Shown here one piece after another: positions 4,005 to 32,434 of a DNA stretch of 55,661 nt. Position 1 is the first letter of the stretch, and every line of letters starts with the position of its first letter. This DNA is from an uncultured Erysipelotrichaceae bacterium. Lineage in GTDB: Bacteria; Bacillota_I; Bacilli_A; Erysipelotrichales; Erysipelotrichaceae. The stretch covers positions 1 through 55,661 of the forward strand of contig CANSQL010000012.1 in the NCBI GenBank assembly GCA_947649125.1, given 5' to 3'. The notes beneath the pieces were generated by a model. The model was given only the letters and a program-made list of their open reading frames with translations, did not search any database and was not told the DNA's origin. The position numbers were made by a program, and so were the translations under genes.

Positions 4005-4078
4005 GATAATGGATAAAAGTAAGGGGTTTCAGGGTGGATTGGTGTTTTGCTTCTATGAAGCAAGAGAGGAGGATTATG

Positions 4079-7000
4079 ATGAAAAGAATAGGGAAAGGAA
4101 TATTGGCGCTCATGTTAACGCTGACGACGTTATTCAGCGGAATTCACATTGAACCGGTATTTGCCGCAGCACCTGCAGGTGAATATCCGATCAGTGAGGA
4201 TGCGTTTGTACGTAGTGATAAGGGTACGACGGTTTATAATAACGAAGCGATTACGGCGGCACACGGCGCTCAATATGAAGGAAAGGGATATAAGGTATTA
4301 AATACAAAATATTATCCCGACGGTCGAGAGCTCATGAGTGTTATGAAGCTGAAGCTTCCGACAGCCGAGGAAATTGCGGCGAATCACTATGATACTTATG
4401 AATTTGAATTCCATATATTTAAAAACGCGGATTTTAAAAAGGGACCGCAGACATATCATTTCTACTATACAAATGATGTCAGTTGGAGCGAATCTTCCAT
4501 CACATGGAACAATAAGCCCGCAGCGATTACCCATGCCGGAACTGATTTGTTTTTTGACTTTACGATTGCGGCAGATAAGGAATATGAGCATTTAAGCGAT
4601 GCGGAAAAAACGATTCGCGTCGATGTAAGTGATAAGGTAAAAGAACTCGTTCAAAACGGCGTGAGTGAAATTACTGTTTTTACAGCTGCGAATGATAAAA
4701 AAGATACTTCCTTAATGCTTCACAGTAAGGAAAGCGGTGACGGCTCCTATACAGCGAAGCTGGTCGCATCGAATAATGATGAAAACAGCCTACGCCTGCA
4801 GGAATTGATTGAAGCTTGTGAAAAAATCACTGCCGACGGGTATACGAGCGCAAGCTATCAGGAATTGCAAAATCAACTGACAGCGGCACAGTCTGCATTG
4901 TCAACAGGAGATGCGAATCAAATTTCACAAGCATATAACAATCTGATGATTGCGAAAACAAGCTTAACCGCAGAATTTTCAGTGCTTGAGGATGCTTTTG
5001 TGAGAAGTGACAGAGGAACGACAAACTATAATTTTGAAAATATCACAAAGGATCACGGCGCTCAATATGTCGGTAAAAACTATAAGGTAATCAATGCGAA
5101 ACGCTATGTGAATAATAATGAAATCATCGGTATGATGAAGTTTGATGTACCGAGCAATGAATGGCTGAATCAACATGAATTGGATACTTATTTCCTTGAA
5201 TTTGATATCTTTAAAAATCCGGGCTTTAATAACGGCGATCAAACATTTCACTTCTATTACACTGCCGATACAAGCTGGAGTGAAACCGCGGTTACTTGGA
5301 ATACCAAGCATGCCGATATTAAGCACGACGGTGAAAAGCTGTTATGTGATTTTGTGATTAAACAGGGAACGGAATATGAAACGAAAACCGATGCCCAAAA
5401 GCATATCAAAATAGATATCAGTGAAAAAATCAAAGAAATTGCGGATGCGGGATACAGCGGAATCACTGTATTTATGGTAGCGGATAAGGGTATGGAAACC
5501 TCATTGATGCTTCATACAAAGGAAAGTGCCGACGGGACAAAGGGTGCGAAAATCACCGGAGTTTATCAGGACTATACGATGCGCTTGGCAAACTTAATCA
5601 AGGAATGTAAAAGCTTAGATGAAGCAGCGTATGAAAAAACAGGCATGGAAGCATTAAAGAATGTACTTGCACAGGCAGAGGGTCTGGGCGATACCGCAAG
5701 CGGATTGGATATCCATATCATGTATGAAAGACTTGCGGCAGCGAAGGAAGCACTTGTTTCCTTGGCCGATCCGAGTGACAGTGCGAACATTGCCTATCAA
5801 AAGCCGACACGCACCAATTTGTCTAAAACACAGAGTGCGCGTGTTACCGACGGCAATTTAGATACGTTCTGGCAGGCAGAGTTTTATCCTTCTTATGTCG
5901 ATATTGATTTAATGGAAGCCTATGATATTACCGGCATGAAGCTATTTACACCGGTCGGTAAAAAAGTAAACTATACGATCTACGGCAGTAATGACGGAAC
6001 TAATTATACACGTCTTTATCAAAAGCGCGATCTAACACCGATGAATGCAGGCGGTGATACGATTACCTTTGTGAAGGCGGAACAGTATCGCATTGTGCGT
6101 GTTTATATGGAATATACCCAGGGTGAAAACAACGCATTCTTATCCGAGGTCAGAGTATACGGTACTGCGGCAGGTAAAAATACCGATGAATTGAAGCAGG
6201 GAACGCTTGAGGAAATTTTAGGAGTTACTTCTTTTGACGACAGTCAGTATGCAGGAGTAATTTCCGATCAGGAAACGATCGATAATGTATACGGCATCAT
6301 TGATCGCACGGTCGGTGCTCAATACCGCAGCTGGTTCAGCTTTGAAATCGTGAAAGACGGAAGTAATAATGATTGGTATGAAATCAGTGATAAGAACGGA
6401 AAGATTCATATCAAAGGTAATGAAGGCCTGTCACTTACCACCGGCTTAAACTATTATTATAAAAACTATCTGAATGTTCATATTTCCGAGCAGACGAAGC
6501 AGGTGTCAATGCCTGATGCAATCGTTAAGGTAAATAAGACAATCAGAAAGGAAACGCCGTATCAAGTGCGCTATGCGTTTAATTATTGTACCTTGAGCTA
6601 TACATTTGCGTTCTTCGGACAGGACGAATGGCAAAGAGAAAACGACTGGTTGGCATTAAACGGTGTGAATGTCGTGCTTGATTTGGCAGGACAGGAAGCA
6701 ACATGGATCAAATTCTTAATGAATTTCGGATACAGTTTTGATGATGCCAAGGATTGGTTAAGCGGTCCTGCGTATTATGCATGGCAGTTTATGGACAATA
6801 TGGAAGTATTCGGCGGTCCGGTGCCTGACGGTTATGTGAAGGATCGTTTGGAGCTGGCAAGGTCCTCACAGCGTTGGAAGCGTTCTTTGGGAATGCAGAC
6901 GATTTTACAGGGCTATGCCGGTATGGTTCCGACGAACTTTAACGAATATCAAAAGGATGTACAGCTGTTGGCACAGGGCGGCTGGGGCGGCTTTACCCGT

Positions 7001-10000
7001 CCGAGCATGATTGCGACAGATACGGCAACCTATGATGAATATGCACGTTTGTTCTATGAAGCACAGGAGTTTGTATACGGCGCAACCTCAGACTACTATG
7101 CGGTAGATCCGTTCCATGAAGGCGGTAAGCGTCCGGCAGGCTTAAGTGATTCCACGATTGCGGATGAGGTATTGAATTCAATGTTGGAATATGACAAGGA
7201 TGCCGTTTGGGTCGTACAGGGATGGCAAAGCAATCCGACCAATGACCTGTTAAAGGGGATGGGCAATCGTCGTGAGGATCATGTCCTTGTGGTTGATTTG
7301 ATTAAATATCCGATCGCTTCTTGGACGAAATATAATAAAACAAGCTACGGCAGTACCAAATTGGACGCGAAGGAATTTAACGGAACAAGCTGGGCATGGG
7401 GCTTATTGGCAAACTTCGGCGGTAATCCGTCGATGCACGGACAGATGGAGGTCATGGTAAACGATATTCAAAATGCGCGAAAGACCTCTCAGCATATGGT
7501 CGGTCTCGGTATCATTTCCGAAGCACAATACGATAATCCGGTGATGTACGACTTGATTTTTGATTTGGCATGGGCAGATGAAAGCTTCCATTTGGATACA
7601 TGGCTTCAGGGATATATCAATCGTCGCTACGGCGGAACCTCGGAAAATGCACGAACCGCTTGGAGTATTATGAAAAATGCCAATTATAATCACGGTGTTC
7701 GCTATACGAATGAGCTGTTCGGTATGAAATCCAAAGCACCGCAGGATTACGGCAAGCAAACGATTCCTTACGGTGCGGAAAATTTAGAAAGTGCACTGCG
7801 CTTATTATTGGAGGATTTTGATAAATTCAAAGACAGCGAATGCTATTTATATGATATTACGGAAATCATGCGCCAACAGGTAAGCAATTATGCAGTATTG
7901 AAATACAATGAGGTCCTAGACGCAAGATCGACAGATACTGTGGCAGAGTTTAAGACATTAAAGGATGAATTCCTGAATGCCTTTGATGTATTGAATGAGG
8001 TAGCCTCGACGCAGCAGGAGCAGCTCGGCGGTGAATGGATCGGCAAGGCAACGGACCGAGGAAGCGCATATGATGATTTTGCGGTGGATTCCTTTGAAAT
8101 GGGTGCTAAGGCGTTGATTACCTCTTGGGGCTCACGAAATTCACACGGTGGCTTAAAGGATTACGGCTGGCGCAATTATGAAGGTATTTTCAAGGATTTA
8201 AATACCGGTATTTGGAGTGAATATTTGAATCGTGTTGCCGATAATTTAGAAAATAACGCTTCGGTAACCAACGGTAATTTATCAAAGAGTGATTACTTTG
8301 ATGTCTATTGGAAATGGAATTTATCGAAGCAGAATTATACAAGAACCGCGAAGGATTCTGCGGCAGAAATTCAGACGATTGCACAGCGTGTATTAGATGA
8401 ATGCGCAATCAGCGGAGAACTTGATCCGAATATCGGAAATGTCGCTTTGCCGGGCTTTGGTGAGGCATCGCCTGCCAATGAGAATGTCAATACGGTAAAT
8501 GACGGTGATAAGGGTACGGTTTTAGAACTTGCGGGAAAAGATGCTGAGGTGATGATCGATTTGATCGGTGAATTCCAATTATCTAAGCTTAATATCGCAT
8601 CGAATGCGCAAAGCTGCGGCTACAGTGTTTATATCAGCAATGATAAAAATACATGGGTGAAGGTCGGTGAAAAGAAGGCCGGAAACGAGGATGAAGCAGG
8701 GATTAATTATCCGTTAGAGGCAGCGATTGCGCGTTATATCAAAGTAGTAGCTGATGATGAAACGAAGCCGTTACAGCTCGGTGAAGTGCGTGCATACGGT
8801 GAGCGTATTCTTCCTGATTTGGTACAGCTCAAAACATTGCTTGATTTTGCGGCAACATTAAATATTGATAATGCGGCGCAAGAGGCAATAAAGCCGTTTG
8901 AGACAGCGCTGAGTGATGCGACGACCTCTTATGATAACGGTGCGAATCCGGATGAAGCAGGAACCGTATATTGGGCACTTTATGATGCGATTGTCGCACT
9001 GGATCTAAAAACGACTCCTAATGTTGCCTTGAATAAAACAGTTACGGCTCATAATGATCCGTCAGGCAACAGCGAGCGTTTGACCGACGGCAGTTTAGAT
9101 ACACATTGGAATGCGGGCCGCTTAAGCGCAACCGGTAAGCCGTATGAGGAAACGATCACACCGGGCTGGGCAGTGGTTGATTTAGAGAAGCTGTATGAGG
9201 TTTCACAGATTCAGGTGGTTTTCGGTAATAATATTTGGCATCATTATGAGGTTTATGTCAGTGAGGATAATCAAACATGGACAAAAATCGGAGAAAAGAA
9301 AACGAACGCATTACCGGGTGATGAGGATGTGTATGAGCTTGACAATGTTTTAGCACGTTATGTGAAGCTGTATTTGACCGATGTACAATTAGAATCCGGC
9401 GGTAAGCGTAATTCCGTAGCCGTTAAGGAGCTGATTGTCAAAGGAACAAGGTTCAAGGCGAATACATCCGATTTGAGTGATGCGATCGCAGAGGCGAAAG
9501 GTTTATCTGAAGAACTTTATACGACTGAAAGCTGGACATTGCTTAAACAAGCATTGGAAAACGCATTACAGTTTGAAAAAGCGGAAGATGTAACACAGAA
9601 TGAAGTGGATACTGCATGTGCTGCCCTGCGTGATGCAATGGCACAGCTTGTCTATAAGGAAGCTGACTATACAAAGGTAGATGAAGCAATTCGTAAGGCC
9701 GAGGCCTTAAATCCGAATGATTATATGGATTTCAGTGCGGTAGAGGAAACAATCGATGCGGTAATACGTGATAAGAAAATCAATGAACAGGATGCTGTAG
9801 ACGCTATGGCTAAGGCAATCGAAAATGCGATTGCGAAGCTTCAGAAAAAAGCGCAGCCTTCCGATTTGGCAGCATTACAGGAAGCTATCGCTAAGGCAAA
9901 GGCTTTAAAGGAGCAGGATTACGCACCTTCTACATGGAAAGTGCTGACTGCGGTCATCGAACGTGGTGAGGCAACAGCTGAGAAGGATATCGCAGCATTG

Positions 10001-10639
10001 AGTGAGGTAAATGAATGTATTGCGGATATTGAGCAAGCAATCAAGGGCTTAAAGCCTCGTGAGGATTATCGAACGGTAACAGATGAAAATATCAGCGTAA
10101 CCGGTAAGATGGAGGAGGATGTCAAGCTGTTGGTTATCAATACGGCAAAGAAGGCGACAGGCCTGTTCCAGGAGCTGTGTGAGAAAACGATGAATTATGA
10201 TGAAAAGTATTTCGTTGATAAAGAGCTGTTGAATGTTTACGATATCAAGCTGATAAAGAATAATGTGCAGTATAAGGCCGAGGGCACAATGCTTGTGAGA
10301 ATCAAGCTGCAGAAAGAATGGATCGGCAGAGATTTATCAGTTATTTATATCAAAGAGGACGGAAGCTTTGAAACAGTTCGATCATCAATCGTTGACGGTA
10401 CGTTGTGCTTCAGCGTTGAGCATTTCTCTTATTACGGAATTGTCGGCAGTAAAAAGGACTTGATAGAAGTACCGAGCGTTAAGCCAAATGATCCGGCATT
10501 GAGACCGGGAGAAAATACTACAACTGGAGCTAATACGGGCGTTGCGGATAATTTCTCCTTAAGCTTCTTGATGGTAATTATCAGCGGCACTATCTTGGGA
10601 TATCATATGCGTAAGAATCATATCAAAATATGGAAATAA
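4079..10639 (+). CDS. Surface GH89 alpha-N-acetylglucosaminidase, multimodular
   Basis: This is a secreted, wall-attached exo-glycosidase of about 2186 residues, predicted to remove terminal alpha-GlcNAc from host glycans (gastric-type mucin or heparan sulfate, as known for family GH89). The order is: signal peptide (1-30, ending VFA-AAP); DNRLRE/CBM96-like module (35-230); FIVAR-like helices; a second DNRLRE module (300-495); helices; F5/8-type-C module (568-700); the three NAGLU parts (about 710-1440); two more F5/8-type-C-like modules (about 1450-1574 and 1645-1790); FIVAR repeats (1795-1995); a beta-rich domain (1996-2126); and a membrane helix with a Lys/Arg tail. Likely catalytic residues are Glu1014 in DPFHEGG and Glu1148 in IISEAQYDNPV, 134 apart, close to the spacing in human NAGLU. 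The start at 4079 is 6 nt after AGGAGG; the adjacent ATG at 4076 is an alternative. Confidence 0.9.
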   Translation: MKRIGKGILALMLTLTTLFSGIHIEPVFAAAPAGEYPISEDAFVRSDKGTTVYNNEAITAAHGAQYEGKGYKVLNTKYYPDGRELMSVMKLKLPTAEEIAANHYDTYEFEFHIFKNADFKKGPQTYHFYYTNDVSWSESSITWNNKPAAITHAGTDLFFDFTIAADKEYEHLSDAEKTIRVDVSDKVKELVQNGVSEITVFTAANDKKDTSLMLHSKESGDGSYTAKLVASNNDENSLRLQELIEACEKITADGYTSASYQELQNQLTAAQSALSTGDANQISQAYNNLMIAKTSLTAEFSVLEDAFVRSDRGTTNYNFENITKDHGAQYVGKNYKVINAKRYVNNNEIIGMMKFDVPSNEWLNQHELDTYFLEFDIFKNPGFNNGDQTFHFYYTADTSWSETAVTWNTKHADIKHDGEKLLCDFVIKQGTEYETKTDAQKHIKIDISEKIKEIADAGYSGITVFMVADKGMETSLMLHTKESADGTKGAKITGVYQDYTMRLANLIKECKSLDEAAYEKTGMEALKNVLAQAEGLGDTASGLDIHIMYERLAAAKEALVSLADPSDSANIAYQKPTRTNLSKTQSARVTDGNLDTFWQAEFYPSYVDIDLMEAYDITGMKLFTPVGKKVNYTIYGSNDGTNYTRLYQKRDLTPMNAGGDTITFVKAEQYRIVRVYMEYTQGENNAFLSEVRVYGTAAGKNTDELKQGTLEEILGVTSFDDSQYAGVISDQETIDNVYGIIDRTVGAQYRSWFSFEIVKDGSNNDWYEISDKNGKIHIKGNEGLSLTTGLNYYYKNYLNVHISEQTKQVSMPDAIVKVNKTIRKETPYQVRYAFNYCTLSYTFAFFGQDEWQRENDWLALNGVNVVLDLAGQEATWIKFLMNFGYSFDDAKDWLSGPAYYAWQFMDNMEVFGGPVPDGYVKDRLELARSSQRWKRSLGMQTILQGYAGMVPTNFNEYQKDVQLLAQGGWGGFTRPSMIATDTATYDEYARLFYEAQEFVYGATSDYYAVDPFHEGGKRPAGLSDSTIADEVLNSMLEYDKDAVWVVQGWQSNPTNDLLKGMGNRREDHVLVVDLIKYPIASWTKYNKTSYGSTKLDAKEFNGTSWAWGLLANFGGNPSMHGQMEVMVNDIQNARKTSQHMVGLGIISEAQYDNPVMYDLIFDLAWADESFHLDTWLQGYINRRYGGTSENARTAWSIMKNANYNHGVRYTNELFGMKSKAPQDYGKQTIPYGAENLESALRLLLEDFDKFKDSECYLYDITEIMRQQVSNYAVLKYNEVLDARSTDTVAEFKTLKDEFLNAFDVLNEVASTQQEQLGGEWIGKATDRGSAYDDFAVDSFEMGAKALITSWGSRNSHGGLKDYGWRNYEGIFKDLNTGIWSEYLNRVADNLENNASVTNGNLSKSDYFDVYWKWNLSKQNYTRTAKDSAAEIQTIAQRVLDECAISGELDPNIGNVALPGFGEASPANENVNTVNDGDKGTVLELAGKDAEVMIDLIGEFQLSKLNIASNAQSCGYSVYISNDKNTWVKVGEKKAGNEDEAGINYPLEAAIARYIKVVADDETKPLQLGEVRAYGERILPDLVQLKTLLDFAATLNIDNAAQEAIKPFETALSDATTSYDNGANPDEAGTVYWALYDAIVALDLKTTPNVALNKTVTAHNDPSGNSERLTDGSLDTHWNAGRLSATGKPYEETITPGWAVVDLEKLYEVSQIQVVFGNNIWHHYEVYVSEDNQTWTKIGEKKTNALPGDEDVYELDNVLARYVKLYLTDVQLESGGKRNSVAVKELIVKGTRFKANTSDLSDAIAEAKGLSEELYTTESWTLLKQALENALQFEKAEDVTQNEVDTACAALRDAMAQLVYKEADYTKVDEAIRKAEALNPNDYMDFSAVEETIDAVIRDKKINEQDAVDAMAKAIENAIAKLQKKAQPSDLAALQEAIAKAKALKEQDYAPSTWKVLTAVIERGEATAEKDIAALSEVNECIADIEQAIKGLKPREDYRTVTDENISVTGKMEEDVKLLVINTAKKATGLFQELCEKTMNYDEKYFVDKELLNVYDIKLIKNNVQYKAEGTMLVRIKLQKEWIGRDLSVIYIKEDGSFETVRSSIVDGTLCFSVEHFSYYGIVGSKKDLIEVPSVKPNDPALRPGENTTTGANTGVADNFSLSFLMVIISGTILGYHMRKNHIKIWK
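9665..10457 (+). repeat. Direct repeat copy 1 (C-terminal module of the GH89 gene)
   Basis: This is the first copy of a 793-bp direct repeat; the second lies 3909 bp downstream in the DUF218 gene. By eye about 27 positions differ, nearly all in the first 380 bp and at the 3' end. About 338 bp (10037-10374) show no difference at all. It encodes FIVAR helices plus the beta-rich C-terminal domain. Confidence 0.9.
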
Positions 10640-11200: not shown

Positions 11201-14200
11201 ATGAGAATTTTGAAAAAATGGGTTTTGGCATTCACTGCTTTCACAATGATCATTTCTTTATTTACCGTAACAAGCAGTGTACAAGCGGCAAGCGTAAATG
11301 CGGATACCTACATTAAGCAATTGATTGCATATTACCGTGATTATCAGGAGAATGCAGCTACTGATATCCAACGTGTTTTACAGGAATTAAAGGCTGTGGA
11401 TGAGTCCAAGTATGAGGCATGGAATCAAATCATGAATTATTGGAGCTATGCCAATACAGATATGGTAGTGAATGACGGTGTTGCGGCTGACGGCTTACCC
11501 AATGATAACAGCGTATGTATTGTTATTCTGGGATTTGCATTGAACAGTGACGGAACGATGAAAAGTGAGCTTATCGGTCGCTTACAGGCAGGCTTGGATA
11601 CGGCGAATAAATATCCTAACGCTTATGTAGTTGTTACGGGAGGCGGTACTGCTTCGGGGAATCCCAATGTAACAGAGGGCGGATTGATGGGAGAGTGGCT
11701 GTTGGATCAAGGCTTGAGTGCCGATCGTCTTATTATTGAAAACAAAGCGCCTGATACGGTCGGTAATGCGAAAAATACGTATGATATTTTAAGCAGTAAT
11801 TATCCGGATGTAAAATCACTGATTATGGTTACAAGCGATTATCATGTGCCGCGCGGCAGTATTCTGTTTTATTCCAAATGTCTTTTGGCTGCTTATGAAT
11901 CAGGAGGTAAGCCGTTAGAAATGATTTCCAATGCGGGTTATAATACCGGATCAAAAGGATATGAAACCATCAGTCTGCAGGCTTCCGGCGTGGCTACGGT
12001 AGCAGGTGTAAGCTTATCCGGTGTTTCTGTAACTTTATCACAGCTAACAGGATTAAGGTTTGCTCAGGAAGGTGAATATCAAGCCGGTGAGGATTTAAAA
12101 TTAACCGTAACAGCTGAATACGATAATGGATTTTCACGTGATGTCAGTGATTTAGTCACTGTTTCAAATTTCGATCCTTCCTTAGGAGCGAATCAGACGA
12201 TTACAATTTCATATACGGAAAACGGTATAACAATTAACGGATTGTTTGATTTAAGCAAGACTGCAGGCAGCATTGCGGATAATACTTATTTAAGAAATTT
12301 AATCGCAAAGGTAGAAGTGATGAATCTCTCCAGCTATACAAAGGCATCAATAGCGCGTTTACAAGCGGCTTTAGCAAGTGCGAAAACAGTTGTTGAAAGT
12401 GGTACGACGGATAACAAAGTGGTGAAGGAAGCATATCAGAACTTAAGCAATGCAGTAAATAAGCTTGCAAAACGTGTGAATATCGCTAAAAATATGAGCG
12501 TAGAGGCCAATTGTAACCAAGGCGATGCTGTAAAAATTACCGATGGTACAGTCAGCACGAGCAATTATTGGGCAAGTGTCAACAACGGCACTAATGTGGC
12601 AGCTTCAGATGCGGAAGTAATAATTGATTTAGGCGGGGTCTATCATGTTGATTCCGTTCAGGTATATCCTTACTGGGGAGGGAATCGTATCTATAAATAT
12701 GAATTGTTCGGAAGTAAGGATAAAATAAACTGGCAGAAAATCGGCGAAAATATTTCTAATGATTATGCGACGTCATCCGGCTTTACCCATGACATGGATG
12801 AACAAATTGCTTATGTGAAGCTGGTGGGAATTGAAACAAAGGTGGAGGGCAGAGATGATATTAATAATCTTCATATTATTGAGATACAGGTGTATGGAGA
12901 TGATGCTTATAATCTTGCTTATCTCAAGCCGGTAACTTCCAGCGGAACAGATACAAGTGCAGGCTCCTCAGCAAGCAGCAGCGATGCAACGGTTGTAGAC
13001 GGTGATCGTTCTACCTATTGGGATGGCGGTGTTTATGCCGATTCGCCTTGGATTACAGTGGATTTGGAAGCGATGTGTCAGATTGATGAAGTAAATATTG
13101 TTACTTATTGGTCAAGACCTGATAATCGTTATTACTATTACGATATTTATACAAGCCTTGACGGTAAGAATTATACCTTGGCGTATTCTAAAAAAGATAA
13201 CACTGATAAAGCCACGATTTACGGGGATACATTTGATTTCACTGCTACACCGCTGTATGCGCGGTATGTAAAAATCATTGGCACATATGATTCGGTTAAT
13301 CCATCCTTCCATCTGAATGAAATTCGGGTGCTCGGAAAAGCGATCGGCGATGATTTGATTGAAGAAATGGAAGCTTTAAAGGCCATGGTTGAACAGGCAC
13401 AAGCAGTTGATTTAACCAATCGTACCGAAGCTTCTATCACCCGTTTACAAGGACTGATTGCGCAAGCTGAAAAACTAATAGAAACACCGCTTGGTTCTAT
13501 GACATTAGATGAGATAACGACAATGAAGAATGAATTAAATCAAGGGATTTCGTCGTTAGAGTATGTGGATGCAGACTATACAAAGGTAGATGAAGCAATT
13601 CGCAAGGCCGAGACTTTAAATCCGAATGATTATATGGATTTCAGTGCGGTAGAGGAAACGATCGATGCGGTAATACGTGATAAGAAAATCAATGAGCAGG
13701 ATGCTGTAGACGCTATGGCAAAGGCAATCGAAAATGCGATTGCGAAGCTTCAGAAAAAAGCACAGCCTTCCGATTTGGCAGCGTTACAGGAAGCCATCGC
13801 TAAGGCAAAGGCATTAAAGGAGCAAGATTACGCACCTTCGACTTGGAAAGTGCTGACTGCGGTCATTGAACGTGGGGAAGCAACCGCTGAGAAGGATATC
13901 GCAGCTTTGAGCGAAGTAAATGAATGTATTGCGGATATTGAGAATGCAATCAAGGGCTTAAAGCCTCGTGAGGATTATCGAACGGTAACAGATGAAAATA
14001 TCAGCGTAACCGGTAAGATGGAGGAGGATGTCAAGCTGTTGGTTATCAATACGGCAAAGAAGGCGACAGGCCTGTTCCAGGAGCTGTGTGAGAAAACGAT
14101 GAATTATGATGAAAAGTATTTCGTTGATAAAGAGCTGTTGAATGTTTACGATATCAAGCTGATAAAGAATAATGTGCAGTATAAGGCCGAGGGCACAATG

Positions 14201-14548
14201 CTTGTGAGAATCAAGCTGCAGAAAGAATGGATCGGCAGAGATTTATCAGTTATTTATATCAAAGAGGACGGAAGCTTTGAAACGGTTCGTTCATCAATCG
14301 TTGACGGTACGTTGAGTTTCAGCGTTGAGCATTTCTCTTATTACGGAATCGTCGGCAGTAAAAAGAGTGTAATTGAGACTCCTGTTGTTAAGCCGAATCA
14401 GCCAGTACAGAAGCCGGGTGAAAGCGGAACGACCGGTGCTGATACAGGGGTTGAGGATTATGGATTGCTGAATTCGATGCTGATGCTGATGAGCGGTACG
14501 CTTTTGGCGGTGTATAGGAAAAAGCATCGTGTGAAGGCTTGGAAGTAG
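11201..14548 (+). CDS. Surface DUF218 (SanA/YdcF/ElyC-type) protein with CBM-like modules
   Basis: This is a secreted, anchored protein of 1115 residues. After a signal peptide (about 1-29, ending VQA-A) comes a DUF218 domain at about 100-232. It carries the family pattern LGFALNSDG, VVVTGGG, ENKAPDTVGNA and MVTSDYHVPRG. DUF218 proteins such as SanA and ElyC act in envelope biogenesis, but their chemistry is poorly known. Next come an Ig-like domain (268-350), FIVAR helices, two F5/8-type-C modules (427-567 and 569-713), more FIVAR (790-925), the same beta-rich domain as the GH89 enzyme (926-1057), and a membrane helix with a Lys/Arg tail. AAGGAG lies 9 nt before the ATG. The leader suggests control by carbon catabolite repression and PTS-dependent antitermination. 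The substrate is unknown. Confidence 0.85.
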   Translation: MRILKKWVLAFTAFTMIISLFTVTSSVQAASVNADTYIKQLIAYYRDYQENAATDIQRVLQELKAVDESKYEAWNQIMNYWSYANTDMVVNDGVAADGLPNDNSVCIVILGFALNSDGTMKSELIGRLQAGLDTANKYPNAYVVVTGGGTASGNPNVTEGGLMGEWLLDQGLSADRLIIENKAPDTVGNAKNTYDILSSNYPDVKSLIMVTSDYHVPRGSILFYSKCLLAAYESGGKPLEMISNAGYNTGSKGYETISLQASGVATVAGVSLSGVSVTLSQLTGLRFAQEGEYQAGEDLKLTVTAEYDNGFSRDVSDLVTVSNFDPSLGANQTITISYTENGITINGLFDLSKTAGSIADNTYLRNLIAKVEVMNLSSYTKASIARLQAALASAKTVVESGTTDNKVVKEAYQNLSNAVNKLAKRVNIAKNMSVEANCNQGDAVKITDGTVSTSNYWASVNNGTNVAASDAEVIIDLGGVYHVDSVQVYPYWGGNRIYKYELFGSKDKINWQKIGENISNDYATSSGFTHDMDEQIAYVKLVGIETKVEGRDDINNLHIIEIQVYGDDAYNLAYLKPVTSSGTDTSAGSSASSSDATVVDGDRSTYWDGGVYADSPWITVDLEAMCQIDEVNIVTYWSRPDNRYYYYDIYTSLDGKNYTLAYSKKDNTDKATIYGDTFDFTATPLYARYVKIIGTYDSVNPSFHLNEIRVLGKAIGDDLIEEMEALKAMVEQAQAVDLTNRTEASITRLQGLIAQAEKLIETPLGSMTLDEITTMKNELNQGISSLEYVDADYTKVDEAIRKAETLNPNDYMDFSAVEETIDAVIRDKKINEQDAVDAMAKAIENAIAKLQKKAQPSDLAALQEAIAKAKALKEQDYAPSTWKVLTAVIERGEATAEKDIAALSEVNECIADIENAIKGLKPREDYRTVTDENISVTGKMEEDVKLLVINTAKKATGLFQELCEKTMNYDEKYFVDKELLNVYDIKLIKNNVQYKAEGTMLVRIKLQKEWIGRDLSVIYIKEDGSFETVRSSIVDGTLSFSVEHFSYYGIVGSKKSVIETPVVKPNQPVQKPGESGTTGADTGVEDYGLLNSMLMLMSGTLLAVYRKKHRVKAWK
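13574..14366 (+). repeat. Direct repeat copy 2 (C-terminal module of the DUF218 gene)
   Basis: This is the second copy of the 793-bp repeat found at 9665-10457, about 96-97% identical by eye, with a central 338-bp block free of differences. Most differences outside that block are synonymous. Confidence 0.9.
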
Positions 14549-14692: not shown

Positions 14693-14862
14693 GTATTTAT
14701 GATTATTTAATGCAAGAAACTATTTAACGTAAAAAGCGAATAGTAAGAAAAAGAGGCGGTGAAAGAAATATACCGTCTCATAACTAAAGCATGTTCAAGG
14801 TGATTAAGGTCAATAAAAGGTCGCTAATAATATCTCATGTTTATTTGAACAGTTTATTTACA

Positions 14863-14890
14863 TTGAATTTTACGATAAGCAGAGTATAAT
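14863..14890 (+). promoter_or_regulatory. Promoter candidate for the sigma-fusion gene
   Basis: TTGAAT (14863-14868), a 16-nt spacer and TATAAT (14885-14890) form a good sigma-A promoter, giving a leader of about 310 nt. No ECF-type promoter pair could be picked out by eye. Confidence 0.6.
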
Positions 14891-15209
14891 AAAAGATATA
14901 TCAGGGAAGTATGCTTGAACTGTTATTTTACCTGTACGGATCGAAAAGTATTATATCGATATACTGAAAACCAAAGTTACATAGGTGAATCTGCCTGCGC
15001 ATTTTGTCGGTTCTCTAAATTGATAAAAGAGCTTTTGCTTAATAAAAAATAAATTTTATATTTTTTTAAATCTTTTTATCCTTGGCAATCGTTAATAGGG
15101 TGAAGGCAGACGAACAGTAATCGCTTTTCAAGAGAATATTCAGAATATACAGGGTCTGTCTGAATAATAAGTCAAGCTAAAAGTGGAAAGATTAAGGGAG
15201 GAAACAAGA

Positions 15210-16970
15210 ATGAATGAAAACCAATGGCTGGAAAAAGCAAAACAAAATGATGAAGAGGCAATCACTCAGCTGATTGAATTAACGCAGCACAATGCATATT
15301 TCGTTGCAAAGCGATATGTGAAAAAAGATAGTGATGCGGAAGACGTTTTACAGGAAAGCTATATAAAAGCATTAGCGAATCTTGATAAAGTGAAAGACCA
15401 TGAGCATTTTATCAAATGGTTTCATTGTATTGTCGCAAACACAAGCAAGGATTTTTTGAAGAAGAAAAATTTAATGTTATTCAGTGATATTTCTGACGAA
15501 AACAATGACATTGAAATTGAAGATACGCGGATTGAATTTGTACCTGATCAAGCACATAATTATAAAGAGCAGCAGCGAATGGTTATGGAAATCATTGATC
15601 GATTGCCTGATGATCAGCGTATGTGTTTAATCATGTACTATTACGATCAGTTCAACGGAAAAGAGATAGCCGAGGCCTTGCAGATACCGGAAGCGACAGT
15701 AAAAAGCCGATTAAAATATGCGAAAAATAAGCTTGTGCATGAGGTAGAGGCTTATGAAAAGGCTAATGATGTGAAGCTGCACAGCAGTGCTGTATTTTCG
15801 TTTGTTGCGTATGTACTTATGCAGGAAGCGAAAGATTGCAAACTGCCGAATACCTGTAAGATATCAAACGATATTTATGAGCGTTTATCAAAACAAGTGA
15901 AAAAAGAAAAGACAGGCTTCATTCGATCAACAGGTTTTAAATGGCTGATTGCAGCAACTGTTGTATCGATATTCGGTGTTTTGGGCTATTTCATATGGCA
16001 ATATGAATCCGATTTAATGACTTTGAAAAAATCAACGATAACTGTAGAATACGGTACGGAATTTTCTTTTAAACCGTCTGATTATGTACAATGTAAAAGA
16101 GAACGAGTTTGTGAATTGGCTGAAGTAACAATTGACTTTAAAAAGGTGAAGGAACATTCTTATGCAGAGGTGGGGACTTATGAAGGTAAAGTGATACATC
16201 GCAATGAAGAAGAGATATTTAAAATTACTGTAAAGGATACAAAAAAACCAACGATTGAATTGAAAAAAGATAAGATTACCTTTACAGAGGGAGAGGCCTT
16301 CGAGCCGTCAAAAAATATTAAAAGTGTAAAAGATCCCGTAGACGGCAATATTAAGGAGAGAAAAGATAAGTCAATTGTAAAAGATGGATATATCATCAAA
16401 AATACGGTTGATAAAAATAAACCGGGTAACTATACGGTGAAAGTTTTAGCTTATGATAAAAACGGTAATAAGACAGAAAAGTCATATGCGGTAACAGTTA
16501 AGAAAAAACCAAAGCCTAAGCCGGTTGTTAAGACACAAAATACATTTTCTGCTCCGTCAATCAAGCAATCGGAAGTCGGTTCTTCTACCGGTGTGGCGGT
16601 AGCGAATGCGGCAAAGAAGCTTGTTGGGAAGAGCAGTGTTTGGTATGCTGAGGCATCATGCATTAATACGGCGGCGGCAGCTATGGAGGGAGCAGGCCTG
16701 AATTCAGATCAATTATACAATGCGTATCATGATTTGGGAAAAGGCAACTATAAAAAATATGAAGTTTCATCCCTTAAAATCGGTGATGTGATTATGTATT
16801 ATTCTACACTGGGAGTGTATCATACGTGCGTTTATATCGGTAACGGCATGGCTGTGCACGGCGGTTTCCCTCATGTTGCAGAGGTGCCGGAAGAGGGAAT
16901 GGTAACTGTTCAAATTTCAACTTATAACTGTGCTGCTGCATCAGAAGTGAAATTTTTTCGTTTTTGGTGA
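15210..16970 (+). CDS. Membrane-spanning ECF-like sigma factor fused to an extracellular NlpC/P60 domain
   Basis: This 586-residue protein combines transcription and envelope domains. Residues about 1-85 are sigma region 2 (SDAEDVLQESYIKAL). Residues 125-180 are region 4 (RLPDDQRMCLIMYYYDQFNG, IAEALQIPEATVKSRL). A linker follows, and then a single membrane helix at 245-263 (WLIAATVVSIFGVLGYFIW). Outside, two Ig-like/DUF5011-type domains (about 275-430) and a Lys/Pro linker (KKKPKPKP) lead to a C-terminal NlpC/P60-like peptidase domain with Cys484, His538 and His550. The 54- and 12-residue spacings match those of active NlpC/P60 enzymes. The ATG at 15210 was chosen over GTG 15183 because GGGAGG lies about 8 nt before it and inside the longer version. 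The fusion is one uninterrupted frame. It may be a membrane-tethered sigma factor that senses or cuts cell wall. No anti-sigma gene is adjacent. Confidence 0.88.
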   Translation: MNENQWLEKAKQNDEEAITQLIELTQHNAYFVAKRYVKKDSDAEDVLQESYIKALANLDKVKDHEHFIKWFHCIVANTSKDFLKKKNLMLFSDISDENNDIEIEDTRIEFVPDQAHNYKEQQRMVMEIIDRLPDDQRMCLIMYYYDQFNGKEIAEALQIPEATVKSRLKYAKNKLVHEVEAYEKANDVKLHSSAVFSFVAYVLMQEAKDCKLPNTCKISNDIYERLSKQVKKEKTGFIRSTGFKWLIAATVVSIFGVLGYFIWQYESDLMTLKKSTITVEYGTEFSFKPSDYVQCKRERVCELAEVTIDFKKVKEHSYAEVGTYEGKVIHRNEEEIFKITVKDTKKPTIELKKDKITFTEGEAFEPSKNIKSVKDPVDGNIKERKDKSIVKDGYIIKNTVDKNKPGNYTVKVLAYDKNGNKTEKSYAVTVKKKPKPKPVVKTQNTFSAPSIKQSEVGSSTGVAVANAAKKLVGKSSVWYAEASCINTAAAAMEGAGLNSDQLYNAYHDLGKGNYKKYEVSSLKIGDVIMYYSTLGVYHTCVYIGNGMAVHGGFPHVAEVPEEGMVTVQISTYNCAAASEVKFFRFW

Positions 16971-16993: not shown

Positions 16994-17045
16994 AAAGCCT
17001 ATAGAGAATCGCTGAATTACAGGCGTAGCTCTATAGGCTTTCCTT
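16994..17045. terminator. Long hairpin, probable bidirectional terminator
   Basis: AAAGCCTATAGAG (16994-17006) is perfectly complementary to CTCTATAGGCTTT (17029-17041), a 13-bp stem with a 22-nt loop. The T run after it is short (TTTCCTT), so termination on the plus strand may be partial. Confidence 0.65.
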
Positions 17046-31398: not shown

Positions 31399-31432
31399 CA
31401 TATTATAAAAATAAGCAGAATCGAGGTTGAGC

Positions 31433-32434
31433 ATGAAAAAACGTAAAAGGAGAGTCAGACCGAGAGCGATATTTTGTTTGATCGCAATTTCAATATTTAT
31501 CATTGCGGCAGTATGGCTATTCATCGATAAGCTGATTTCCGTTAATGAAGCACCTGTAATTACCTTAAAGGCCGATATGATCATCATTGATGAAGGTACT
31601 TCGTTTCATGCGGAACAATATATCACTTCAGTAGAGGATTTTAACGGGAATGCACTCAGCTTCAGTAAACAGGAGCACAAGAAAGGAAGCTATTGGATCA
31701 GCGGTAATGTTGATATCAATAAACAAGGCGTTTATAAGGTAATCGTTTATGCGCTTGATGACAAAGAGAATCAAGCCGAAAAAATGCTGACGGTAACGGT
31801 CGAGAATAAAGAAACAAGCAGCCCCGTAAGTAAGCCGAATACTGCAGATAAACCTAATAATAAGGGGGATGAAGGCAATGTGCCGTCTAATATAGACAGC
31901 GGCGGATATGACAGCTCGATCGATCCCGATGATTGTGAGCCATATTATGTGAACGGAATTTTATTGGTGAATAAGCTTCATCCCTTGCCGCCTAGCTATG
32001 GAGAATTAGATGATGAGGCAGTACAGGCACTGGAGAAGCTGCAGAGTGCCGCAAACAGCGCAGGCTATTCGATTCCGACCTTAAGCGCATATCGCAGCTA
32101 TGATTATCAGGGAACCTTGTACAATAATTATGTAGCGCTTGATGGACAGGAAGCGGCCGATACCTATTCAGCCCGTCCGGGCTTCAGTGAGCATCAATCG
32201 GGACTGGCATTCGATGTCGGAGAGCTAAGCTATGATTACGGTGATACAGCGGCCGGTAAATGGCTGCATCAGCACTGCCATGAATATGGCTTTATTATTC
32301 GTTACCCAAAAGATAAGGAAAAAATTACCGGTTATGTATATGAACCGTGGCATATTCGCTATGTCGGAAAATCAACAGCGAAAACAATATATCAGAAGGG
32401 AGTAACGCTTGAGGAATACCTGGGCGTAAACTAG
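31433..32434 (+). CDS. VanY-type D-alanyl-D-alanine carboxypeptidase (M15B), membrane-anchored
   Basis: 333 residues. It is predicted to trim the terminal D-Ala from peptidoglycan stem peptides outside the cell. A very basic N-terminus and one membrane helix (about 15-35) anchor it. An Ig-like DUF5011-type domain (about 40-125) and a Ser/Pro/Asn linker lead to the M15 domain. The metal ligands are His254 and Asp261 in SEHQSGLAFD and His307 in EPWHIRY; the AYRSYDYQ motif is also present. The ATG at 31433 follows GAGG by 6 nt; TTG at 31427 is less likely. The trmR-like gene follows after 10 nt. VanY enzymes can aid vancomycin tolerance, but no other van gene is here, so a housekeeping role is more likely. 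Confidence 0.9.
   Translation: MKKRKRRVRPRAIFCLIAISIFIIAAVWLFIDKLISVNEAPVITLKADMIIIDEGTSFHAEQYITSVEDFNGNALSFSKQEHKKGSYWISGNVDINKQGVYKVIVYALDDKENQAEKMLTVTVENKETSSPVSKPNTADKPNNKGDEGNVPSNIDSGGYDSSIDPDDCEPYYVNGILLVNKLHPLPPSYGELDDEAVQALEKLQSAANSAGYSIPTLSAYRSYDYQGTLYNNYVALDGQEAADTYSARPGFSEHQSGLAFDVGELSYDYGDTAAGKWLHQHCHEYGFIIRYPKDKEKITGYVYEPWHIRYVGKSTAKTIYQKGVTLEEYLGVN

Follow-up and report, generated by a model that had tools for sequence, protein, structure and literature searches.

Can a sigma factor, a membrane anchor, and a wall-facing enzyme domain form one working protein, and if so, what would such a protein do? The question is raised by a single gene in the 55,661 nt stretch of DNA that was analyzed here (the window), which derives from an uncultured Erysipelotrichaceae bacterium of the mouse gut. 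The open reading frame encodes 586 amino acids and runs uninterrupted from an ATG at position 15210 to a stop codon at position 16970. A longer frame with a GTG start at position 15183 was judged less likely than the ATG start with its good ribosome-binding site. The initial annotation of the window had placed sigma regions 2 and 4, a membrane helix (residues 245–263), two Ig-like domains, and the residues Cys484, His538, and His550 within this one frame, and all of them were found at these residues. The features of the gene are the following:

15194–15201, + strand: ribosome-binding site AAGGGAGG, 5' of the ATG at 15210, with AAGGAGG at the equivalent position of the G002 ortholog (sequence).
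15210–16970, + strand: whole gene, ECF sigma factor, membrane helix, two Ig-like domains, and NlpC/P60 domain (open frame and translation, full-length orthologs).
15216–15470, + strand: sigma region 2, residues 3–87 (Pfam Sigma70_r2, AF2 helices, alignment with Escherichia coli sigmaE).
15543–15767, + strand: sigma region 4, residues 112–186 (Pfam Sigma70_r4_2, AF2 helices, alignment with SigW).
15783–15836, + strand: juxtamembrane helix, residues 192–209 (AF2 models of the fusion protein and one paralog, alignment with paralogs).
15942–15998, + strand: single membrane helix, residues 245–263 (KD 1.97, AF2 helix 241–267, flank charges).
16011–16502, + strand: two Ig-like domains, residues 268–431 (AF2 strands, Pfam match below the cut-off, identity to Ig-domain proteins).
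16575–16967, + strand: NlpC/P60 domain, residues 456–586 (fold match, triad, dN/dS).
16659–16661, 16821–16823, and 16857–16859, + strand: Cys484, His538, and His550, the triad of the NlpC/P60 domain.

The N-terminal part of the protein contains regions 2 and 4 of an ECF (group 4) sigma factor according to Pfam, TIGR02937, and predicted fold. Sigma70_r2 (residues 23–87) and Sigma70_r4_2 (residues 123–175, E = 3.9e-14) both match above their curated Pfam cut-offs, and the TIGR02937 score is 95.5 bits (cut-off 42.9). Residues 1–182 of the AF2 model align with SigW (Z = 16.5) and region 2 aligns with E. coli sigmaE (Z = 15.1), and the sigma part looks complete. The model as a whole, of moderate confidence (mean pLDDT 74), comprises two helical domains in the sigma part, the helix at residues 192–209, the membrane helix, and then a pair of beta-sandwich domains and one alpha/beta domain; the relative placement of the domains is unreliable (pTM 0.38). 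The juxtamembrane helix at residues 192–209 is a candidate for a built-in inhibitory or hinge segment. The sole hydrophobic helix (residues 245–263, mean KD 1.97) has a flanking charge of +4 toward the sigma part and of 0 toward the outer part, which by the positive-inside rule predicts an N-in/C-out topology with the sigma domain inside the cell. The suggestion in the initial annotation that the sigma factor is tethered to the membrane by its own sensor domain fits this predicted topology.

The most trivial explanation of such a gene would be an artefact, that is, two genes joined by assembly or annotation, or a dead gene. A full-length ortholog with 96% identity was identified in G004 (the mouse-gut MGBC assembly of isolate A81) at the same place, 5' of the S10 operon, and a second one with 53% identity in G002 at a different genomic place, adjoining coenzyme-A biosynthesis genes. 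In the comparison with the G004 copy, dN/dS is 0.11 for the whole gene, with values of 0.025 in the sigma part and 0.06 in the NlpC part, which indicates that both ends of the fusion are under purifying selection. The gene is thus present in three independent assemblies and two genomic contexts, its sigma regions 2 and 4 are conserved, and relatives split into two genes were not found in the search. These data rule out an assembly join, split genes, and a decaying gene; nothing was found in favor of an artefact, and its probability is negligible.

The distribution of the fusion is narrow. At E ≤ 1e-42 no ortholog was found in the remaining four members of the genus or in 266 other genomes of the family, among which G017 gave a match at this threshold to the sigma part only, and a scan of named genomes returned the 96% ortholog as the sole match. 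Only three species, all from one genus, are known to carry the fusion, and one distant look-alike is present in another genus (G041, genus g8). The look-alike (L121:115–1842, 575 amino acids) combines a diverged sigma factor with a membrane helix, a beta domain, and an NlpC/P60 domain and is apparently a separate instance of the combination, which may therefore have arisen more than once. The two Ig-like domains are visible as AF2 strands; the Bact_surface_Ig-like family matches residues 355–430 (E = 4e-5, below the Pfam cut-off). The Ig pair shares ∼45–51% identity with separate proteins of the genus that carry Ig domains, suggesting that the fusion originated by domain shuffling. These separate proteins form a family of about ten per genome (L002–L010, L052–L070) that resembles residues 265–460 of the fusion, and at least one of its members (L032) carries a lipoprotein-like signal. 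A VanY-type carboxypeptidase elsewhere in the window (31427–32434) has an N-terminal Ig-like domain like those of the sigma fusion.

What does the sigma factor transcribe? The upstream regions of the three orthologs were compared and the surroundings of the gene were searched for transcription signals:

15067–15093, + strand: predicted autoregulatory ECF promoter, −35 TAAATC at 15067–15072, 16-nt spacer, −10 TCGTT at 15089–15093.
14863–14890, + strand: possible upstream housekeeping (sigmaA) promoter TTGAAT-16-TATAAT (consensus scan only).
16994–17041, + strand: hairpin 3' of the gene, probable terminator before rpsJ (17408) (RNA fold).

TAAATC-N16-TCGTT is found ∼120–145 bp 5' of the fusion gene in all three species. 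The sole upstream sequence shared by the orthologs is a block that reads TTTTTAAATCTTTTT-N12-CGTT(A/G)ATAGGGTGAA in the window and G002 genes (local alignment score 60 against a shuffle maximum of 35), and it is kept although the G002 copy sits elsewhere in its genome. The block has the form of an ECF promoter, in which an AAC-like −35 element ∼16 nt from the −10 element is expected, and resembles 15 promoters of related sigma factors described below. With up to three mismatches, the longer pattern occurs only before the three orthologs in seven genomes of the genus; TAAATC-N16-TCGTT has no other intergenic copy in the source genome (G000), and the strictest pattern has no second copy in G002 or G004. 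A promoter that is conserved and unique among intergenic sites implies autoregulation, which we regard as a prediction for the living cell, and its conservation indicates a working sigma factor. With the full −35 matrix from the cassette promoters described below, this site takes rank one or two in the upstream region of each of the three orthologs. Another −35-like site, at 14840, scores higher but was set aside, as it is absent from G002. The sigmaA-like sites in the upstream region are no more numerous than in shuffled sequences. A wider regulon was considered as well: a looser pattern yields three extra sites in the source genome, all of which fall within coding frames or at their ends. 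These look like chance matches; a reversed control pattern was about as frequent. Other targets with a weaker promoter match are possible.

The gene is flanked by a DUF218/F5-8 surface protein gene and the ribosomal protein S10 operon, and in agreement with the initial annotation neither of these neighbors resembles an anti-sigma factor. The 3' hairpin, which a simple terminator scan had missed, lies in a 110-nt stretch with a folding energy of −32 kcal/mol. Given this hairpin and the unrelated neighbors in G002, the simplest reading would be a single self-regulating gene that is probably monocistronic and whose only obvious target is itself. Further upstream, the window encodes two surface proteins (4034–10639, with an alpha-N-acetylglucosaminidase NAGLU module and F5/8; 11201–14548, with DUF218 and F5/8) that share a near-identical C-terminal region of roughly 260 amino acids, a sign of recent exchange.

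The product of this putative loop ends in the NlpC/P60 domain. Residues 456–586 of the AF2 model, for which the alignment contained NlpC rows with the triad columns matched, have the fold of NlpC/P60 enzymes (Z = 12.8, 12.2, and 11.8). In nine homologous domains, the residues corresponding to Cys484, His538, and His550 are C/H/H or C/H/N, as in a Cys-His-polar triad. Hydrolase activity is predicted. The Pfam match of the domain is below the cut-off in the fusion protein (E = 0.008) and above it in the 53% ortholog (24.7 bits against 23 bits). NlpC/P60 folds can also be non-catalytic wall binders, as in RipD, which is among the fold matches. The outer domain could accordingly bind peptidoglycan or act as a substrate-gated sensor and cut nothing, in which case autoregulation would only adjust the number of sensors; the low Pfam score and the RipD fold speak for this. 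Such a role is possible but rather unlikely, given that the triad is identical in both orthologs, including the one that is only 53% alike, that the nine homologs share its residues, and that the NlpC part has the low dN/dS value given above.

Taken together, the protein can be explained as a membrane-tethered, self-regulating ECF sigma factor that is released by proteolysis and forms a one-gene positive-feedback switch, an explanation that as a whole we consider fairly probable. At rest, the membrane helix would keep the sigma domain inactive on the cytoplasmic face of the membrane, and the Ig-like stalk and the peptidase-like NlpC/P60 domain would be located within or beneath the wall. A change in the wall, the presumed signal, would trigger cleavage in or close to the membrane helix, possibly by a protease of the S2P/RseP type. 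Release by intramembrane proteolysis when the outer domain binds or cuts wall material had been put forward as a possibility in the initial annotation. The freed sigma factor would then, together with RNA polymerase, transcribe its own gene from TAAATC-N16-TCGTT. Since transcription would yield further copies of this wall-facing protein, the circuit would be a positive-feedback switch made of one gene, and the output of the switch would be the wall enzyme or adhesion domain itself. The architecture, conservation, fold, triad, and promoter block are computed results, whereas the resting tether, cleavage, sigma release, self-transcription, and wall-facing output are drawn from known systems. An RseP-like M50 (S2P-type) protease is encoded in the same genome (all controls of this search were positive); RseP-type proteases are nearly universal and its presence discriminates little.

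Membrane-associated sigma precursors that are activated by proteolysis are familiar from Bacillus sporulation (pro-sigmaE and pro-sigmaK). These have a short N-terminal pro-sequence and no outer sensor, whereas the tether of the fusion protein is C-terminal and carries a large ectodomain. In IutY the extension of the sigma factor is a FecR-type anti-sigma domain that serves iron-starvation cell-surface signaling. This protein of Pseudomonas putida (ECF243), a FecI-like sigma factor fused to a membrane anti-sigma factor and released by Prc and RseP, is the closest experimentally supported precedent for release (PMC8999054). It resembles the fusion protein in that a single chain unites all three components, a sigma factor, a membrane helix, and an outer domain, and in the intramembrane release of the sigma factor proposed here; it differs in that the fusion protein has an Ig and NlpC/P60 outer part, an Erysipelotrichales host, and no Pfam match to a FecR/STN-type C-terminal part. 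In the actinobacterial groups ECF48, ECF52 (SCO4117), and ECF53 a zinc-finger anti-sigma domain lies between sigma factor and membrane, and ECF52 has a proline-rich region with a carbohydrate-binding domain (PMC5826349, PMC8999054). Proteolytic release has been proposed for all three groups (PMC8999054, PMC5826349), and for SCO4117, the second precedent after IutY, with its wall- or carbohydrate-facing module, autoregulation has been proposed as well (PMC5826349). The arrangement of sigma factor, membrane helix, and an outer domain able to meet wall or carbohydrates is common to these groups and the fusion protein. The fusion protein, however, has a peptidase-fold ectodomain and no zinc finger: a direct reading of residues 186–244 contains no HX3CX2C, Pfam gives no zinc-finger match, and the ectodomain matches Ig-like and NlpC/P60 domains only, not a carbohydrate-binding module of the ECF52 type. 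As neither the zinc finger of ECF48/52/53 nor the FecR part of IutY was found, the protein may work like these systems and is not classed with them. The initial annotation had called the locus the best candidate for an undescribed signaling system, which overstated the case: IutY and ECF48/52/53 already represent the principle of fusing a membrane extension to a sigma factor, with proteolytic release a proposal for the latter groups (PMC8999054, PMC5826349). A search of the open-licence literature found nothing on sigma-NlpC fusions or on Erysipelotrichaceae ECF sigma factors with membrane domains, and an earlier description in a subscription journal is possible.

The same comparison bears on a different mode of action, in which the sigma factor works while bound to the membrane and is never cleaved. 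Binding to the wall would alter its conformation or clustering and RNA polymerase would be recruited to it, in a manner similar to ToxR or CadC. The AF2 model allows for this with a flexible, low-confidence stretch (residues 231–244) that joins the sigma part to the helix, the sigma factor is whole and has no recognized anti-sigma domain, and a cleavage site is not demonstrable by sequence. A sigma factor must, however, leave DNA and polymerase in order to recycle, which a tether hampers. Moreover, IutY, the closest characterized fused sigma factor, requires proteolysis and becomes constitutive when truncated (PMC8999054). Action from the membrane is therefore considered unlikely, and proteolytic release is retained as the preferred mechanism.

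Two aspects that the initial annotation had missed are the promoter described above and the membership of the gene in a genus-wide expansion of tethered sigma factors. A total of 25 further tethered ECF sigma factors (327–374 amino acids, 24 loci, L073–L096) were identified in the source genome, a count that applies to one draft genome of 93 contigs in which giant genes are often cut at contig ends. These sigma factors consist of a sigma part, a juxtamembrane helix, a membrane helix, and a helical ectodomain of 60–70 amino acids. For 23 out of 25, a large surface-protein frame follows 124–404 bp downstream on the same strand, and the remaining two reach contig ends. The downstream proteins measure ∼1,700–1,840 amino acids where complete (e.g., sigma factor L093:1802–2875, giant gene L093:3250–8775). 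Pfam gives no notable match to the ectodomain (e.g., L093:2663–2872), in which a conserved AYF is often followed by WACC or AHC. Among 316 genomes of the order, this ectodomain is present in the seven members of the genus and in one further genus. A PDB fold search with a paralog model gave sigma-like matches only among the matches listed, with the ectodomain left without fold assignment. Internal stop codons (TAA or TAG) interrupt several of the cassette sigma genes of G001, G003, G005, and G006, which suggests turnover of the cassettes. Near many cassettes (L082, L085, L086, L087, L091, L094) lies a repeated gene of up to ∼340 amino acids whose product starts with variants of MKNNLEVADAIE(T/N)NDLNKAYDEYCKKILSNKQILARIMKECV and which is possibly a mobile element.

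The gaps between sigma and giant genes were compared with orthologous cassettes of G001, G005, G002, and G003, as a plain count of GAAC-like motifs in these gaps had given only a modest enrichment. In 15 gaps, footprints were found in which exactly 16 nt separate a GAAC-like −35 from a cassette-specific −10, the −10 types being TGTC, CGTC, GTTC, ATTC, GAGC, TGGC, CATC, TATC, GGAC, and CTCT. A leave-one-out −35 matrix ranked the footprint site first in 11 out of 15 gaps, a test that is partly circular because the sites were picked with the footprints in view. A cleaner test is given by alignments anchored on the −35 element alone (9 distant and 27 nearer comparisons), in which conservation drops across the spacer and climbs again at the −10 position, providing independent evidence for the −10 element. 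Members of the tethered class thus have dedicated, conserved GAAC-like-N16-NNNC promoters before their neighbor genes, and most cassette sigma factors appear, from this arrangement, to control one neighboring giant surface protein. Housekeeping-type promoters precede 8 out of 25 cassette sigma genes (0.5 expected). The array recalls the SigI/RsgI units of Clostridium thermocellum, where many sigma units have separate outer sensors and RseP releases the signal (PMC12203970). Both sets contain many paralogous sigma units with their own outer sensors that control surface or extracellular proteins; sigma factor and RsgI are separate there and one protein here, and the two flanks of the fusion gene include no RsgI-type gene.

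The fusion protein shares with the cassette factors the sigma, juxtamembrane helix, and membrane helix plan and the form of the promoter. It differs in its ectodomain, which in the cassettes is the short helical one outside any Pfam family, and in having no giant gene downstream, so that it is a relative of the cassettes and not a typical member; the predicted target of a cassette factor is the next gene and that of the fusion is itself. It appears to be an odd member of the family, a surface cargo fused to its own sigma factor. A similar plan extends to G017 (genus g7, 4.3 Mb), where most of 73 sigma-domain matches fall in frames of ∼426–490 amino acids and where each of the five proteins inspected (e.g., L209–L213) combines a membrane segment with an outer domain, some of them adjoining surface-protein genes. 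The paralogs of the source genome and G017 together mark the tethered plan as a broad local invention. This repetition weighs against the view that no signal crosses the membrane at all and that two independent activities, a constitutively active sigma factor and a wall hydrolase anchored in the membrane, happen to share one polypeptide. That view draws on the fact that a signal, or a target beyond the gene itself, was not found; the recurrence of the same sigma-linker-helix plan in ∼25 paralogs whose ectodomain is unrelated to that of the fusion, and of a similar plan in the five G017 proteins, argues that the tether matters, which leaves the absence of signaling quite improbable.

The cassette array is probably a larger find than the fusion in the window. 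For the genus as a whole, the picture that may hold, with about an even chance, is one of ∼25 one-component tethered sigma factors, nearly all of which would be paired with a single giant surface protein by way of a promoter of its own, in which −35 and spacer are constant and the −10 is individual; outside contact could then switch on the surface proteins singly. The fusion gene would be a self-contained, single-gene transmembrane feedback switch of sigma factor and wall peptidase whose promoter drives itself. If true, this would be about the shortest route from wall to promoter, with sensor, relay, sigma factor, and output in one polypeptide. Its ∼25 tethered paralogs, all from one small gut genome and apparently with distinct promoters, are a naturally occurring set whose parts could serve as orthogonal switches. 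With them it would become possible to test by what means a gut bacterium selects the giant surface protein on display, how crosstalk between the promoters of related ECF sigma factors is avoided, and whether a sigma factor is subject to direct intramembrane proteolysis in this group.
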